This document shows positions 226-51,486 of a DNA stretch of 64,000 nucleotides, piece after piece. Within the stretch, counting starts at the first letter, position 1, and each line of letters starts with the position of its first letter. The notes under the pieces were generated by a model. That model saw only the letters and a list, made by a program, of their open reading frames with translations, did not search any database and had not been told where the DNA came from. Both the position numbers and the translations under genes were made by a program. Origin of the DNA: an uncultured bacterium (lineage in GTDB: Bacteria > Bacteroidota > Bacteroidia > Bacteroidales > UBA932); the NCBI GenBank assembly GCA_949300025.1, contig CASGCS010000023.1:1-64000 (forward strand), read 5' to 3'.

Positions 226-3200
226 ATGAATATACCAGAGAGGCATTTCGACCTTTGTATGGACATATCCATGCTTTTACGCGACAATATCGATGCCCTA
301 TCTCTAAAGATTGATGCCGATGCTGTTTATTTAATACGCTCTTCGCACTATAAAAAACGGGAACGGATGATTTACACGGCAGAGAATATTCAATATCCTC
401 CATTGGTCCAAAAAGACGGAACGGGCTCTTATGTGGCCATTAAAGAGCGTGAGGAGATCCTAATATATTTTCTTCGTGATGTATTTCGTAAGCCATCATT
501 CCGTCCTGGGCAGTTGCCCATACTCAGCCATACGTTAGCAGATAAGACAACTATTGGACTGTTGCCGACGGGCGGAGGTAAATCACTGACATATCAGCTT
601 TCTTGTCTCTTACAGCCAGGAGTTTCTATTATTGTCGATCCCTTGGTATCTCTTATGGTTGATCAAATACGAGGCTTACGCGAATCTCGTATTGACGTTT
701 GCGATTGTGTTAATAGCGGAATGGATGCAAAAGAGAAAGCAAAGAAACTGAATTCGCTCCAAAATGGCACGGTCCTTTTTATGTTGCTTTCACCGGAACG
801 TTTTATGATGAAAAACTTCCGTTCGAGTTTACTAACAATGACAGAGAAGAATCATATGTATTTTTCATATGGCATTATTGATGAGGTTCATTGTGTTTCA
901 GAATGGGGACATGATTTCCGTACTTCATACTTACATCTCGGGAGAAACATGATTAACTTCATGCATACTAAATCACAACGCCCACTTTCAATTATAGGAC
1001 TTACTGCTACAGCCTCTTTTGATGTGCTTGCTGATGTGGAGCGTGAATTGACTCTTGGAGGCAATCTTACTATTGATAGTGAAACAATAGTTAGACCAGA
1101 ATCTGATACTCGTCCAGAGCTAACATATCGAATTGTGGAGGTACGTTCAAATTTTGACAAACTAAGAGAACCTGCAGAGTTGTATGTGCTAAAGGCTAAG
1201 TCTAATTGGGAATTAAAGGACATAGTCGCAACAGAAAAGAAAAACAGAATGTATTCTCTTCTTCATGAGATACCATCTGATATCGAGTTGCTTAATCAAA
1301 ATGAGACAACGGAAACACAGATTGCACATATTCCGGGCTTCGAATCGGATTGCTTTTTTGCTCCAGATAGTACCCGACACTATCCCAATGCCGGAATAAT
1401 ATTCTGTCCTCATGCTCATGGAACATTCGGAGTTGAGGATAATGTTTGGGGAACTCGCACAGGTATATCTACAGAATTACGGGTCAATGAGCAAGATTTG
1501 GTAATCGGAACTTTTGTTGGAGGCGATCATCCATCTGGAGACATGAAATCGTTTAATGAGAATGAGCAAAGCGTGATGGTTGCTACCAAAGCATTTGGTA
1601 TGGGTATTGACAAACCCAATATTCGATATACAATCCATATCAATCATCCTTCGTCTATCGAGAGTTATGTTCAAGAAGCAGGACGTGGTGGCCGTGACAA
1701 AAAGCACGCAATTTCCTATGTTCTTTTTGACCCAACAGAATATATAGAATTAACGATTGATAAAATCAATGACATCCGCTATTTAATGGGACAGGATGAC
1801 CCTGTGTGGCTTGAACGCTATATCAACAAGTTTATTCTTGCTGATGACATACGAGATTTATGCCAACATAATGGAGCGACAGAAGAACAGACAGACAGGA
1901 TTATCGATATTATTCGTAAACAAGGTTTTCTTGAAAATATAGATAAGGACATCAATCTGTGGTTCCATAACAATTCTTTCAGAGGATTGTTTAAGGAAAA
2001 GGTCATTCTTGTTGAATTGACCGACCGCATAATGAATGCAAAGCCAACGCGTTTGATTGAGGTACAAGGCAAGCTGAGAGATTTAACAGGCAATGAAGAT
2101 GTCTGCTTAAAAATTTCTGCACAGAAAAAGAGTATTATTATTTTTTCAGAAGAGGACAATAATAAACAATATGGGTATATATTTCTGGACACATTAACTC
2201 CAACTTATAGGTACACTGATTTTGATTACAATCTATGTTCATATATCTCAGGCTTACTTATCAACATTCTCAGTAGTTATCCAGAACACACACCGGCCTA
2301 TCTACTTAAACCGCTTGAAGGTGAAGATAACATTGTTGAAGGTATTTATCAAGCGATGGCAAATGCAGATGAAGATGGCAATGCCAGTGTTGTGGTGTCA
2401 TGGGAGAATAATATAAAACAAGACCCGGAAGGATTTGAGAAGGCTATTAAGGACGAAATCTCCAAAATATCCCAGGCTCAGGGATGGGCTGATATAAATG
2501 AAGAGAGATATGGCAAACTGGATTTAAATAAAATTGATGATTTTGAACAACTTATCACCAAAATCTTAAAATGCTCAGGGGACAGTGCATGGTTAAGACA
2601 TCATGCAAACAGAGATGCGTATCGCAAATTGAGAATGGCTTTCTGTAAGAAGCGAGATAAGGATGACACAGACAAGGCAATATATCGTTTATGTTGTATA
2701 GGTCTTGTAGATGATGTTACTATTGATTATTTATCACAGACTTATGAATTGAAAATACACAAGCGTACCGATGAAGAGTTCAAACAGAATATGCTTGAAT
2801 TCTTCTGTAAGTATTATTCGACTGAACAAGCACAGAAGAAAGTAAATGAGATTGACAAGCAAAAAGGGCGTAATTACTTAGATAAGTGTTTAGGGTATCT
2901 AACGGCTTTCGTATATGAAAATCTTGAAAAAAAGAGGTATCGTGCGATAGAAGATATGAGAATTGCCTGTGAGAATAGCATTATAGAAAGGCAGTTGAAT
3001 GGTAATGATGAATGGTTAAAGGAGTTTATCCACCTCTATTTCCATTCAAAATACGCTAGGACAGGTTATCGAGTAGATGACAAACCTTGCTCCTTAAAAG
3101 ATGATACTGATATCGAAGGTAATGATGGGTTTGATGTCGTACAAAAGTACATTGACATCATCAATCCCGAAAAAGATAATTCCGGAAGTGAAATCGACAA

Positions 3201-46397: not shown

Positions 46398-47998
46398 TTC
46401 CTGACTTTGACAATGCGTCACCCTACTCGGATGTGTCCTGAGAAAAGAGTTCCAGCAATGGTTTGATGGCTTCCTGCTGTGGTGTTGTGAACAGGGTTTC
46501 AGTATAAGCCGAGCCGTTGGGCAGCCTTATCCTGAGCGTCGTTATTGTCTTGGCGATTTCCAGAACCTTGTCAACGCTCATCTTCATGCCGAGTTCTCTG
46601 ATGACCCGCTCAAGTTCCTTATACACCTTGTAGGCTACAAAGCAGATGCAGATATGGGCCTCGATACGTCTCTCCGTAAAGTGGAACATCGGACGCATTT
46701 CGAGCGTACCCTTGCCGATGCGGAAGGCCCTCTCAACCACCCATAGGCCATGGTATTGTGATATGACCTCCGTCCCCGGCAGGTCCGTATTCGTTATATA
46801 CCCCTTCAGTCCATCCCAAAGACTGTCCTCCGCTATCTTTTCCTCATTGATGCTTACGGTTATGTCCCTGCTGATGTCAAGGAACTTGTTGTAGCCCCGT
46901 TTGTTTACGTTGTCCTTGGTCAGGGTGCCTTTCGCATAGGCCTTCCGGAGTCTCTCGACTCCCTTGCTGCGGTTCCATGCGCTTTTCTTTGCCCGTGCAT
47001 CCGAGTAGCTTACAATCAGCCTCTGAGTGTCATTCCTGCGGCACTCAACGATGTTCCCGTCCGTCCTGTCGGCTTCCAGGATCCAGTCTTTTATCCTCTG
47101 GGACTCGTTCCGTATTCTCGCCCCGAGGATGTATCGGTAGCCGGCGGATTCCAGTAGTTCCACATTCCTTGTGCTCATAAGCCCAGAATCAGCCACAACT
47201 ATGAAGTCTGTCAGCTTGAAGCGCTGGACAAAGTCATCTATTACCGGTATCATCGTGCGCCCCTCGTATTGGCTCCCGTTGAAGATGGAGTAGGACATCG
47301 GGTAGCCGTCCGGATCCGGTGAGGACTCGAAGTATAGCGTGGTCACATCGTAGAAGACGACCCCTATCCGTCCACCGAGGATCCTCATCGTGTGCTCCAC
47401 GCTTATCTGCTGGACCTTCTCCTGCTGAGTGTTGTACAGCCTGTCCATGTAGCTGTAGATATTGTGCAGCCGGACGTCCTCGTCGAAATAGGACTTCAGG
47501 TACTCCGCTGTCGCGACCTTGCTCTGTGGCTGGCATACCCTCGCGATGACTAGATGTCGCAGGATACTGTCCCCGATTGCCCCGAAACCGATCCTGTCGT
47601 ATATGTGGCCGAGGATAACCTGAGGCGTGTTCTGCAGCGTCCTCTCGATGCGGAAATGGTGTTCCTCGCTTCTCGGAGTGCCTGTGTGCTCTCGTCAAAG
47701 TCAAGCGTCAGCTGGCCGGAATATCCGTCTATCCATTGACGAGCCACGACCTCAAGGCGGGATATCTCATCGGGGTCGGACGACACACCTATCGTCTTCA
47801 ACTCCTTGAACCTGCCGCTGCTCTTGTCCGCGACAACTACACTGACCGTACCGCTGCGGTTCTTCTTTTTGCGCACAAACATGCCATAAAGATACTCATT
47901 TTAGGCTTGCGTCACCCGCGTCACCGGAAGACTTTTCTGAAACTGCTGATTATGACATGGTTACAATTGGCGCGTTTTTAGGCTGTCAAAGTCAGGAA
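46398..47998 (-). mobile_element. IS1634-like (IS4-group) insertion sequence
   Basis: Perfect 15-bp terminal inverted repeats, TTCCTGACTTTGACA, at 46398-46412 and (reverse complement) 47984-47998 bound a 1.6 kb element with one transposase gene. No clear target-site duplication flanks it (TCTCTAT on the left against TCGAGTC on the right), which suggests a deletion next to the element after insertion. Its right end truncates a lipoprotein gene. The family call rests on the transposase; the size fits. Confidence 0.82.
46423..47882 (-). pseudogene. IS1634-family transposase, frameshifted
   Basis: The first part (47882 down to about 47690) reads MFVRKKKNRSGTVSVVVADK and continues to DESTQALREAR, the usual start of IS1634-type transposases. 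The correct continuation (IERTLQNTPQVILGHIYDRI, then MDRLYNTQQEKVQQ) is in a frame shifted by one base, so the reading frame breaks between about 47640 and 47690; the original frame stops at 47550. The catalytic residues are otherwise visible: Asp in FYDVTTLYFES, Asp in VVADSGLMS, and Glu in LWVVERAFRIGKG. No slippery heptamer is apparent at the break, so I read it as a disabling mutation or sequencing error, not programmed frameshifting. Confidence 0.85.
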
Positions 47999-49035: not shown

Positions 49036-50334
49036 TTACAGTTTTCCGTCGAGCAGCATCTCGTAGGTTGCCAGATCCAGAAGGCCGTGGCCCGAAAGGT
49101 TGAAGAGTATTACCTCCTCCTTGCCGGCCTCCTTTGCCTTGAGCGCCTCCTGTACTGCAAGAGCGATTGCATGGGTCGATTCCGGAGCGGGGATTATGCC
49201 CTCGCAGCGCGAAAAGAGCAACCCTGCATTAAGTGCATCCTTCTGCTCTACGGTGTACGACTCTATCAGCCCGTCCTGCTTGAGCTGGCTTACGATTTGT
49301 CCGCCCCCATGATAGCGCAATCCTGCGGCATGTATCTGCGCCGGCTGGAAATCATGGCCGAGTGTATACATGGGAATGAGCGGGGTCATGCCGGCGGTAT
49401 CGCCGAAATCATACTCCATTTTGCCTTTGGTAAGTTTGGGACATGCGGCCGGCTCTGCTGCCATGAAACGGGTCTTCTTTCCATCCTTGAGATTGTGCCT
49501 GAGGAAAGGGAAGGAAATTCCCGAGAAGTTTGAACCTCCTCCGAAACATGCTATCACCTTGTCGGGATAGTCCCCTGTCAGTTCCAGCTGCTTCTCCGCT
49601 TCCAGACCTATTATTGTCTGATGCAGAAGCACATGGTTCAAGACAGAACCGAGCGTATAGCGGCAGTTCGGAGTCTCGAGCGCCATCTCCACAGCCTCAG
49701 ATATTGCTATTCCAAGACTTCCCTGGCAATCAGGGTCTTTCGCCAGAATATCGCGCCCGAATTTTGTAACATTGGAAGGGCTGGCATGAACCTGTCCGCC
49801 GTAGGTTCTCATCACGATTTTTCTGTAAGGCTTGAGATTATAGCTGTTCTTTACCATAAACACATTCAGGTCCAGACCAAAATGCTGGCAGGCTATGCTC
49901 AGCGCCGAGCCCCATTGTCCTGCACCGGTTTCTGTGGTGATATGCTTTATCCCTTGCTTTGCATTGTAGTAGGCCTGAGGAATTGCAGAATTGAGTTTAT
50001 GGGAGCCCACAGGGCTTACGCTTTCATTCTTGAAGTAGATTTTTGCCGGTGTATCCAACGCCTTTTCCAGCCCCGAAGCCCTTACAAGCGGCGTAGGCCT
50101 GTATATTTTCAAAAGGGTGAGAACCTCATCGGGGATATCTATGAAACGCTCTTTTGAAAACTCCTGGGCAACCAGTTCTTTTGCAAAGAGCGGCTCCATC
50201 TCCTCGGGTTTAAGAGGCTGCCTTGTCTTGGGATTGAGCAGAGGCTGTGGAGCGTTAGGCATATCGGCCAGTATATTATACCATTGTCTGGGCATCTCGC
50301 TCTCGGGGAGCGTAATTTTTTTCGTCAGTTTCAT
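49036..50334 (-). CDS. trpB: Tryptophan synthase beta chain, TrpB2 type
   Basis: About 432 residues, longer than the roughly 400 of standard TrpB. The N-terminal extension (PRQWYNILADMPNAPQPLLNP) is typical of the TrpB2 group. The PLP Lys is in VGSHKLNSAIPQAYY, the active-site Glu-bearing loop is TETGAGQWGSALS, and the phosphate loop is CFGGGSNFSG. It condenses indole with serine to tryptophan; TrpB2 forms are thought to act without tight TrpA pairing. The gene stands alone, convergent with the deformylase. I start at ATG 50332-50334; the longer frame to 50418 runs through the attenuator hairpin and is rejected. Expression is controlled by the Trp leader at 50397-50523. Confidence 0.93.
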   Translation of the reverse strand: MKLTKKITLPESEMPRQWYNILADMPNAPQPLLNPKTRQPLKPEEMEPLFAKELVAQEFSKERFIDIPDEVLTLLKIYRPTPLVRASGLEKALDTPAKIYFKNESVSPVGSHKLNSAIPQAYYNAKQGIKHITTETGAGQWGSALSIACQHFGLDLNVFMVKNSYNLKPYRKIVMRTYGGQVHASPSNVTKFGRDILAKDPDCQGSLGIAISEAVEMALETPNCRYTLGSVLNHVLLHQTIIGLEAEKQLELTGDYPDKVIACFGGGSNFSGISFPFLRHNLKDGKKTRFMAAEPAACPKLTKGKMEYDFGDTAGMTPLIPMYTLGHDFQPAQIHAAGLRYHGGGQIVSQLKQDGLIESYTVEQKDALNAGLLFSRCEGIIPAPESTHAIALAVQEALKAKEAGKEEVILFNLSGHGLLDLATYEMLLDGKL

Positions 50335-50396: not shown

Positions 50397-50427
50397 ACAG
50401 GCCCGAATGCGTGAGCACCGGGCCTGT
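50397..50427 (-). terminator. Trp attenuator terminator
   Basis: ACAGGCCCG (minus strand, 50427 down to 50419) pairs perfectly with CGGGCCTGT (50405 down to 50397), leaving a 13-nt loop. TCTGTTTTAG follows, the U-tract. It lies between the leader peptide and trpB. Its ascending arm and loop (50420-50411, CGGTGCTCAC) can instead pair with GTGAGCATTG (50479-50470), ten pairs including two G-U, which would form the antiterminator. Confidence 0.78.
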
Positions 50428-50484
50428 TGTATAATTCTATCTGATTACTTATATGTTAAATAAATAGGGCAATGCTCACAAGAT

Positions 50485-50523
50485 TCATATCCTGTGCCAC
50501 CACCAATTTCTATTATTTGACAT
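50485..50523 (-). CDS. trpL: trp leader peptide (MSNNRNWWWHRI)
   Basis: A 12-codon open frame 150 bases before trpB, with three consecutive Trp codons (50497-50505) followed by His-Arg-Ile and TGA at 50485-50487. Three adjacent TGG codons in a tiny leader, followed by mutually exclusive hairpins, are the hallmark of ribosome-mediated attenuation. When charged Trp-tRNA is scarce, the stalled ribosome leaves 50470-50479 free to form the antiterminator; when it is plentiful, the ribosome reaches the stop, covers that arm, and the terminator at 50397-50427 forms. A purine-rich stretch (GATGAACTCAG) precedes the ATG but is a weak ribosome site. Confidence 0.85.
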   Translation of the reverse strand: MSNNRNWWWHRI

Positions 50524-50595
50524 CACTGAGTTCATCGAGCACAAATTTAACAAAACATTTTCCACAACTGCAAATTTTTTTTCGTTTTTTTGCGG

Positions 50596-51486
50596 TTATT
50601 TCAAAACACCCGTTACAAAACGGGGTTTACCGTAAAGGTCATCGAAAGCCTTTGTATTGTCAAAACCGTATTTTTCAAGAAGTTGCGCAACTTGCCCGGA
50701 AAATTTCTCATTTGTCTCGAAATAGAGTTTTCCTCCCGGTTTCAGCAGTTCTGCCGCCGCTTCCGCAATTTTCCCATAAAAGAGCAGAGGATTGTCATCC
50801 GGTACAAAAAGGGCCAGAGAGGGTTCATAGTCCAGCACATTGGGGCGCATTATCCTCTTCTCGCTTTCGCAGACATAGGGCGGATTGCTCACTATTATGT
50901 CATACGGCGCTCCGACAGCCTTCTGCTCAAGTTCTCCCGACAGAACATCACTTTTGAAAAAGAGAGGAACCGGGGATGAAGAAGCATCGGGACCATCGCC
51001 TGCAAATTGCGAGGAGGCAACCTGCAACGCCTTTTCAGAGATATCACATCCATAGACGGAACATTCCGGCAATCTTTTTTGCAGAACCCATGCAATACAT
51101 CCACTGCCAGTACAGATATCCAGTATGGAAGAGGGCCTGCACGAAGCATGCGCAATGTCGCCGAGGAGCATGTCTACCAGTTCCTCTGTCTCCGGGCGCG
51201 GAATCAGCACCCCCTCACACAGCCTGAACCTGTATCCGTAAAACCATCCGTAGCCCAAAACATACTGCAACGGTTCGCCCCTGCCCAGCCTGGCCACGGC
51301 GTCTTCCAGTTTCGGCTCAACCTCCCTGCCAAGCTCCCTATGAGGTTCCGTCATGATTTTATAATGCTCGAGACGGGCGATTTCCTCTACCAGAATACGC
51401 CCTATGCCGCTGATCTCCTCCTGCGAGTACCATCCGAGTCTGCCGAGAGAAGATTTCAGATATTCTATGAAAGATCCGAGTGTCAA
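50596..51486 (-). CDS. prmC: Release factor glutamine methyltransferase
   Basis: A 296-residue SAM-dependent methyltransferase that methylates the Gln of the GGQ motif in release factors RF1 and RF2. The N-terminal helical domain precedes the catalytic domain. LDICTGSGCIAWVLQKRLP binds SAM, and IVSNPPYV is the diagnostic NPPY motif that holds the substrate amide. Length is normal. The start overlaps the ddl stop by four bases (ATGA at 51483-51486), so it is expressed with ddl. Confidence 0.95.
   Translation of the reverse strand: MTLGSFIEYLKSSLGRLGWYSQEEISGIGRILVEEIARLEHYKIMTEPHRELGREVEPKLEDAVARLGRGEPLQYVLGYGWFYGYRFRLCEGVLIPRPETEELVDMLLGDIAHASCRPSSILDICTGSGCIAWVLQKRLPECSVYGCDISEKALQVASSQFAGDGPDASSSPVPLFFKSDVLSGELEQKAVGAPYDIIVSNPPYVCESEKRIMRPNVLDYEPSLALFVPDDNPLLFYGKIAEAAAELLKPGGKLYFETNEKFSGQVAQLLEKYGFDNTKAFDDLYGKPRFVTGVLK

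Follow-up and report, generated by a model that had tools for sequence, protein, structure and literature searches.

Evidence for a ribosome-mediated tryptophan attenuator ahead of a solitary trpB2 gene in Bacteroidales

Results

A trpB2 gene downstream of prmC

The window analyzed here is a 64,000-nt stretch of contig CASGCS010000023.1 from an uncultured bacterium of the Bacteroidales lineage UBA932. On its minus strand, trpB2 (49036-50334) encodes a 432-aa protein with the invariant GSHK motif, whose lysine we take to be the catalytic lysine of TrpB. A preliminary description of this DNA had called the gene a TrpB2-type trpB. This identity was confirmed by two curated TrpB2 models, TIGR01415 (621.6 bits, cut-off 518.85) and PRK12391 (698.9, cut-off 366), and by the trpB1 model TIGR00263, against which the protein stayed below threshold (152.2, cut-off 392.45); its nearest solved chains are 6hul_B, 4qys_B and 6hte_B. 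The gene upstream on the same strand is prmC (50596-51486), and all parts of the putative attenuator lie on the minus strand between the two genes. Elsewhere in the window, a DUF805b RNA (RF02914) was found at 11899-11933 (35.9 bits, gathering 35.6), and an IS1634-family transposase at 46423-47882, which covers only positions 174-479 of the 483 in its profile and has a separate short ORF upstream, is probably a broken copy.

A Trp-codon leader and promoter-like elements

Downstream of prmC, a TTTG resembling a -33 element (50574-50571, minus strand, with its TTG at -68 relative to the first Trp codon) is followed at a distance of 21 nt by the TAnnTTTG match TAAATTTG resembling a -7 element (50549-50542, minus strand, -44 to -37 relative to that codon). 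Both were read from the sequence against what we presume to be the Bacteroidales promoter consensus (TTTG -33 / TAnnTTTG -7). The three adjacent Trp codons TGG TGG TGG reported in the preliminary description are present (TGGTGGTGG, 50505-50497, minus strand), as is its 12-residue reading frame (MSNNRNWWWHRI plus stop, open at 50523-50485 on the minus strand), and only the length of the leader needs revision. An in-frame ATG at 50535, four codons upstream of the 50523 start, lies 30 nt ahead of the first Trp codon. Among the 45 leader-bearing upstream regions described below, 44 have an in-frame ATG and 1 has none; the distance from the farthest such ATG to the first Trp codon is 30 nt in 16 of the 44 and 27 nt in 12 more. 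Because this conserved start-codon spacing matches the ATG at 50535, the leader is probably the 16-residue MNSVMSNNRNWWWHRI followed by a stop (50535-50485, minus strand) rather than the 12-residue form. The promoter-like element at -44 to -37, read with the presumed consensus, predicts a transcription start very near 50535, which may put the start codon almost at the 5′ end of the transcript.

Three alternative helices

Three helices can be drawn on the minus strand from the leader to the gene. The 1:2 hairpin (50504-50468, 15 pairs) spans the Trp codons, the stop codon and strand 2, with the Trp codons making up much of its 5′ arm and the stop codon lying inside it. Strand 2 (50479-50470) is at the same time the 5′ arm of the 2:3 antiterminator, in which it forms 10 pairs, 2 of them G-U, with strand 3 (50420-50411), and strand 3 lies inside the 5′ arm and loop of the 3:4 intrinsic terminator (50427-50397, 13 pairs, MFE -22.7 kcal/mol). 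The terminator is followed by the U-rich tail CTGTTTT (50396-50390, minus strand, read from the sequence), an imperfect U run (CUGUUUU) in the RNA. With the ribosome at the stop codon, its footprint would take in strand 1 and extend into strand 2; with the ribosome stalled at the Trp codons, strand 2 would be free. Such an arrangement of leader and ribosome is the classical attenuator geometry.

All the elements named in the preliminary description were found at this locus. Its 10-pair antiterminator (50470-50479 with 50411-50420) was borne out, and the alternative 1:2, 2:3 and 3:4 helices agree with the geometry of ribosome-mediated attenuation that it proposed. Its terminator at 50397-50427 is likewise present, with a stem longer than the 9 bp given there because 10 pairs are continued by 3 more across a one-base bulge. 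The 15-pair 1:2 hairpin and the pair of promoter-like elements had been missed.

Conservation of the arrangement in relatives

A search of 148 genomes (the host genome and its relatives) found trpB2 in 73, from which 70 upstream regions were taken; G064, G065 and G080 were omitted because the gene start lay at or beyond the contig end or outside the match. Within 250 nt upstream of trpB2, a short ORF with the pattern W.{0,2}W occurred in 43 of the 70 regions (shuffled mean 2.65, maximum 6 in 20 rounds), and one with adjacent WW in 37 of the 70 (shuffled mean 0.95). When 380 nt were considered, 46 regions had a W.{0,2}W leader, and 45 were accepted after L048 was dropped, its match lying far upstream and probably inside another gene; L014 had two candidate leaders, of which the second was taken. 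A terminator stands between leader and gene in 44 of the 45 leader regions, with all energies at or below -10.9 kcal/mol, against 4 of 132 shuffled segments; in the remaining region, L020, there is a hairpin and the required T run is missing. TAnnTTTG precedes the leader in 27 of the 45 regions (shuffle mean 4.6, maximum 10). These shuffles rule out a chance origin of the leader, the promoter-like element and the terminator. Strand 2 pairs with strand 1 at 4 or more positions in 41 of 44 regions, and only 26 of 44 individual sequences had an antiterminator better than that formed with a shuffled strand 2 (p ≤ 0.05).

Within the window, a W.{0,2}W short ORF lies upstream of 3 of the 34 long ORFs, trpB2 being one of them. 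Of the 15 TGGTGGTGG sites read genome-wide, only that of trpB2 falls in a start-bearing short ORF with the leader layout, so that this search, confined to the TGGTGGTGG arrangement, found no second Trp-run leader in the genome.

The other 25 of the 70 trpB2 genes have no accepted leader. In the close relatives L007, L008 and L009, a few bases separate trpB2 from a preceding reading frame and the leader is absent, as if the gene had been moved off its attenuator. In L033 (genome G063), inspection by eye revealed a terminator-like hairpin just upstream of trpB2 and a short ORF with a single Trp codon, which is perhaps a decayed attenuator.

On the criterion of the leader ORF alone, W.{0,2}W short ORFs were found within 250 nt at 19 of 80 named public-genome loci (two or more of them, L149 and L180 included, look accidental) and at 10 of 29 loci in a phylum-wide draw that included 1 already-sampled genome. 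Examples with WWW among the named loci are L106, L129, L151, L161, L170 and L174, all Bacteroidota records, and the nearest named relatives are Bacteroidales.

Covariation of the stems

Each strand was folded with its partner from the same genome and with partners swapped between genomes. Mean energies were -16.2 (self) versus -12.6 kcal/mol (swap) for 1:2, -12.1 versus -9.69 kcal/mol for 2:3, and -21.3 versus -9.3 kcal/mol for 3:4, and the self value was reached by 0 of 5000 permutations for each helix. In a less redundant set of 13 sequences it was reached by 1 of 5000 permutations for 2:3 and by 0 of 5000 for each of the other two.

Alignment A2 comprised 13 of the 45 leaders, hand-picked as the closest relatives sharing the layout, with the candidate L004 omitted. 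Among these 13, 1:2 had 91.1% of cells paired and 4 pairs with both sides changed, and 3:4 had 78.8% paired and 3 such pairs; the terminator scored higher for covariation after a slide of -1, which points to misalignment there. For 2:3, 89.8% of cells were paired with 0 pairs changed on both sides, and 500 of 500 shuffles gave an equal result. Since pairing is high and double changes are absent within the clade, 2:3 is conserved there and covaries only over wider distances.

The preliminary description had proposed aligning trpB2 upstream regions across Bacteroidales, and had counted a lack of conserved TGG runs or stems in relatives against attenuation. We ran this comparison, and both are conserved over a large part of Bacteroidales, with Trp-run leaders in 45 of 70 regions, terminators in 44 of those 45, and strands that covary across lineages.

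Scores against known leader families

The window leader scored 20.8 bits against RF01692 (gathering 49) and 20.3 bits against RF00513 (gathering 41), and membership in either family was rejected on these scores. When the window, the region and 40 trpB2-leader loci were scanned with Rfam, no match to the leader reached gathering level: at the gathering threshold, 0 of 20 loci matched any Rfam family, and in the second set of 20 only L050 matched RF00513, its 32.4 bits falling short of the gathering 41.

Matches to RF01692 were found in 20 of the 148 genomes (E ≤ 0.05), 7 of them above the gathering score, and in these relatives they carry leaders such as MRTILVNTYWWRYLQLTKS. Of the 20, 19 precede trpB1 or trpE (the latter identified by eye); the other, L098 in G087 with 42.2 bits, precedes trpB2. 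Three genomes of genus g11 (L093/G084, L095/G048 and L097/G067), in which neither trpA nor trpB2 was detected, have a solitary trpB1 with MKNMNIHRYWWRCVLL or a near-copy as its leader. At another locus, L105 (G094:C131, about 1497-1740, reverse strand), the tandem Trp-run leaders MNTNRLNNYWWWQFTYSFYREEGKLS and MNNSNLHIWWWHNSGIKP lie before a trpE-like gene and are possibly a double attenuator.

The Trp pathway in the host genome

The host genome (1.85 Mb, 92.37% complete) gave 0 matches to trpA (PF00290, positive in 14 of 14 control genomes), in keeping with the earlier view of this TrpB2 as solitary. It also gave no match to trpC (PF00218), trpB1 (TIGR00263, E ≤ 1e-90) or the tryptophanase family (TIGR02617, E ≤ 1e-30), and the two closest relatives, G019 and G030, are likewise without trpA, trpB1 and the tryptophanase family. 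Among the genes searched, TrpB2 was the sole Trp-forming enzyme found, and the rest of the pathway appears from these searches to have been lost; because the genome is only 92% complete, any undetected Trp gene could lie in its missing part. With none of the four detectable, TrpB2 could therefore form Trp only from imported indole. The preliminary description had set indole salvage against an answer to tryptophan supply. Both fit one enzyme, and the contrast falls away since the two are not alternatives: because trpA and trpC are not detectable in the genome, the most likely role of TrpB2 is salvage in response to tryptophan supply. In one other genome (G062:C34:13471-16311), trpB2 is followed immediately, on the same strand, by a gene matching the tryptophanase-family model.

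Attenuated trpB2 genes were more often in trpA-negative genomes (37 of 45) than unattenuated ones (14 of 25; Fisher p = 0.026). On a TrpB2 tree of 68 of the 70 rows (two were too short), the attenuator label changed 14 times, at least 10 of these changes being forced by well-supported branches. Independent pairs on this tree leaned in the predicted direction (2.5 versus 0.2, or 3.6 versus 0.3) without reaching significance (median p 0.5 and 0.25), so the association with trpA loss is not established. We regard the idea of an attenuator that follows loss of the pathway as no more than suggestive.

Discussion

The locus combines the features by which we assign it to the attenuator class: a leader ORF with adjacent Trp codons, an intrinsic terminator before the gene, a 1:2 hairpin over the control codons, and an antiterminator that is exclusive with the terminator and covaries, with no double changes within the close clade. 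From the parts observed, how they are arranged, how far they are conserved and covary, and the absence of detectable pathway genes, we infer, with a probability of about 0.88, that a ribosome-mediated transcription attenuator controls the solitary trpB2.

What happens in the cell, from the transcription start through stalling, termination or antitermination and the response to Trp to the substrates of the enzyme, would then run as follows. Transcription would begin just upstream of the leader ORF. When charged tRNA-Trp is ample, the ribosome would pass the three Trp codons to the stop and block strand 2, whereupon the 3:4 terminator would form and trpB2 would be off. Under scarcity of charged tRNA-Trp, a ribosome stalled at the Trp codons would hide strand 1; strand 2 would then pair with strand 3, no terminator would form and trpB2 would be transcribed. 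If the leader were not translated, 1:2 and 3:4 would form and transcription would stop. The enzyme would presumably make its product from imported indole and serine (or phosphoserine).

The attenuator could be real and TrpB2 could nevertheless mainly catalyze another reaction here, such as serine deamination. According to an excerpt of PMC1854888, a serine deaminase role was once proposed for TrpB2 from gene occurrence, and the same excerpt reports poor serine deaminase activity of the TrpB2 tested. Control by Trp codons ties the gene to Trp supply, and the three g11 genomes have a like leader before a solitary trpB1, which makes a different main reaction unlikely.

That the leader is instead a TnaC-type arrest peptide, on which free Trp would stall the ribosome near the stop and induce the gene, would suit a Trp-containing leader adjoining a gene of indole or Trp metabolism. 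TnaC is marked by a single key Trp, a C-terminal Pro and a Rho site. The leader-bearing relatives nearly all have adjacent Trp codons, a terminator and exclusive stems, which is the layout of an attenuator, and a Trp-making gene is not expected to be induced by Trp; we regard arrest of this type as very improbable. It is just as hard to credit that the hairpin is only a terminator of prmC and the Trp-rich ORF is without function. In favour of this view, the hairpin is flanked by prmC and trpB2, all on one strand, and L032 and L036 seem by eye to have terminator-like hairpins without a Trp leader. Against it, the Trp-run leader and terminator occur together in fixed order in 44 of 45 regions, a promoter-like element sits between prmC and the leader, and strand 2 covaries with strand 3.

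The role of TrpB2 has long been unsettled. Control by leader Trp codons, in our preferred reading as an attenuator, is evolutionary evidence that cells use TrpB2 to supply themselves with Trp. Where trpA and trpC are undetectable in the genome, it predicts regulated indole salvage for many Bacteroidales, and hence cross-feeding with tryptophanase-bearing neighbours. A broader proposal, which we put forward tentatively and rate a little short of an even bet, is that Bacteroidales losing the trp operon keep Trp attenuation on the remaining Trp-forming enzyme (the lone TrpB2, or in g11 the lone TrpB1), giving a starvation-induced indole-scavenging module tied to indole-producing neighbours.

The mechanism class is known; what appears to be new is its target, a solitary TrpB2, and the metabolic setting. 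Our search of openly licensed PMC papers found none on attenuation of trpB2, and the available excerpts of two papers on the TrpB2 enzyme and its evolution (PMC1854888, PMC11917138) do not mention it. The window protein shares its sequence family and active-site motif with the TrpB2 enzymes of TIGR01415. Among leaders, the Trp_leader family RF00513 (E. coli trpL type) acts through tandem Trp codons and alternative 1:2, 2:3 and 3:4 helices, the same logic as in the window leader. The target differs, since the window leader stands before a lone trpB2 and not a trp operon. In Chlamydia trachomatis, as described in excerpts of PMC7755916 and PMC6504234, trpRBA similarly combines a truncated Trp pathway with Trp-dependent regulation of Trp synthesis from indole; there the repressors TrpR and YtgR take part in control, and TrpBA is the enzyme instead of, as here, a lone TrpB2 downstream of a leader-peptide attenuator. 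Closest in setting is the Bacteroid-trp leader, Rfam RF01692, listed in an excerpt of Weinberg et al. 2010 (PMC2864571), which shares with the window leader the phylum and a Trp-rich leader ORF ahead of a Trp-synthesis gene. The trpB2 leaders may work like Bacteroid-trp and be its distant kin. The finding also points to a class of Trp attenuators that goes undetected when current Rfam models are applied at their curated thresholds.
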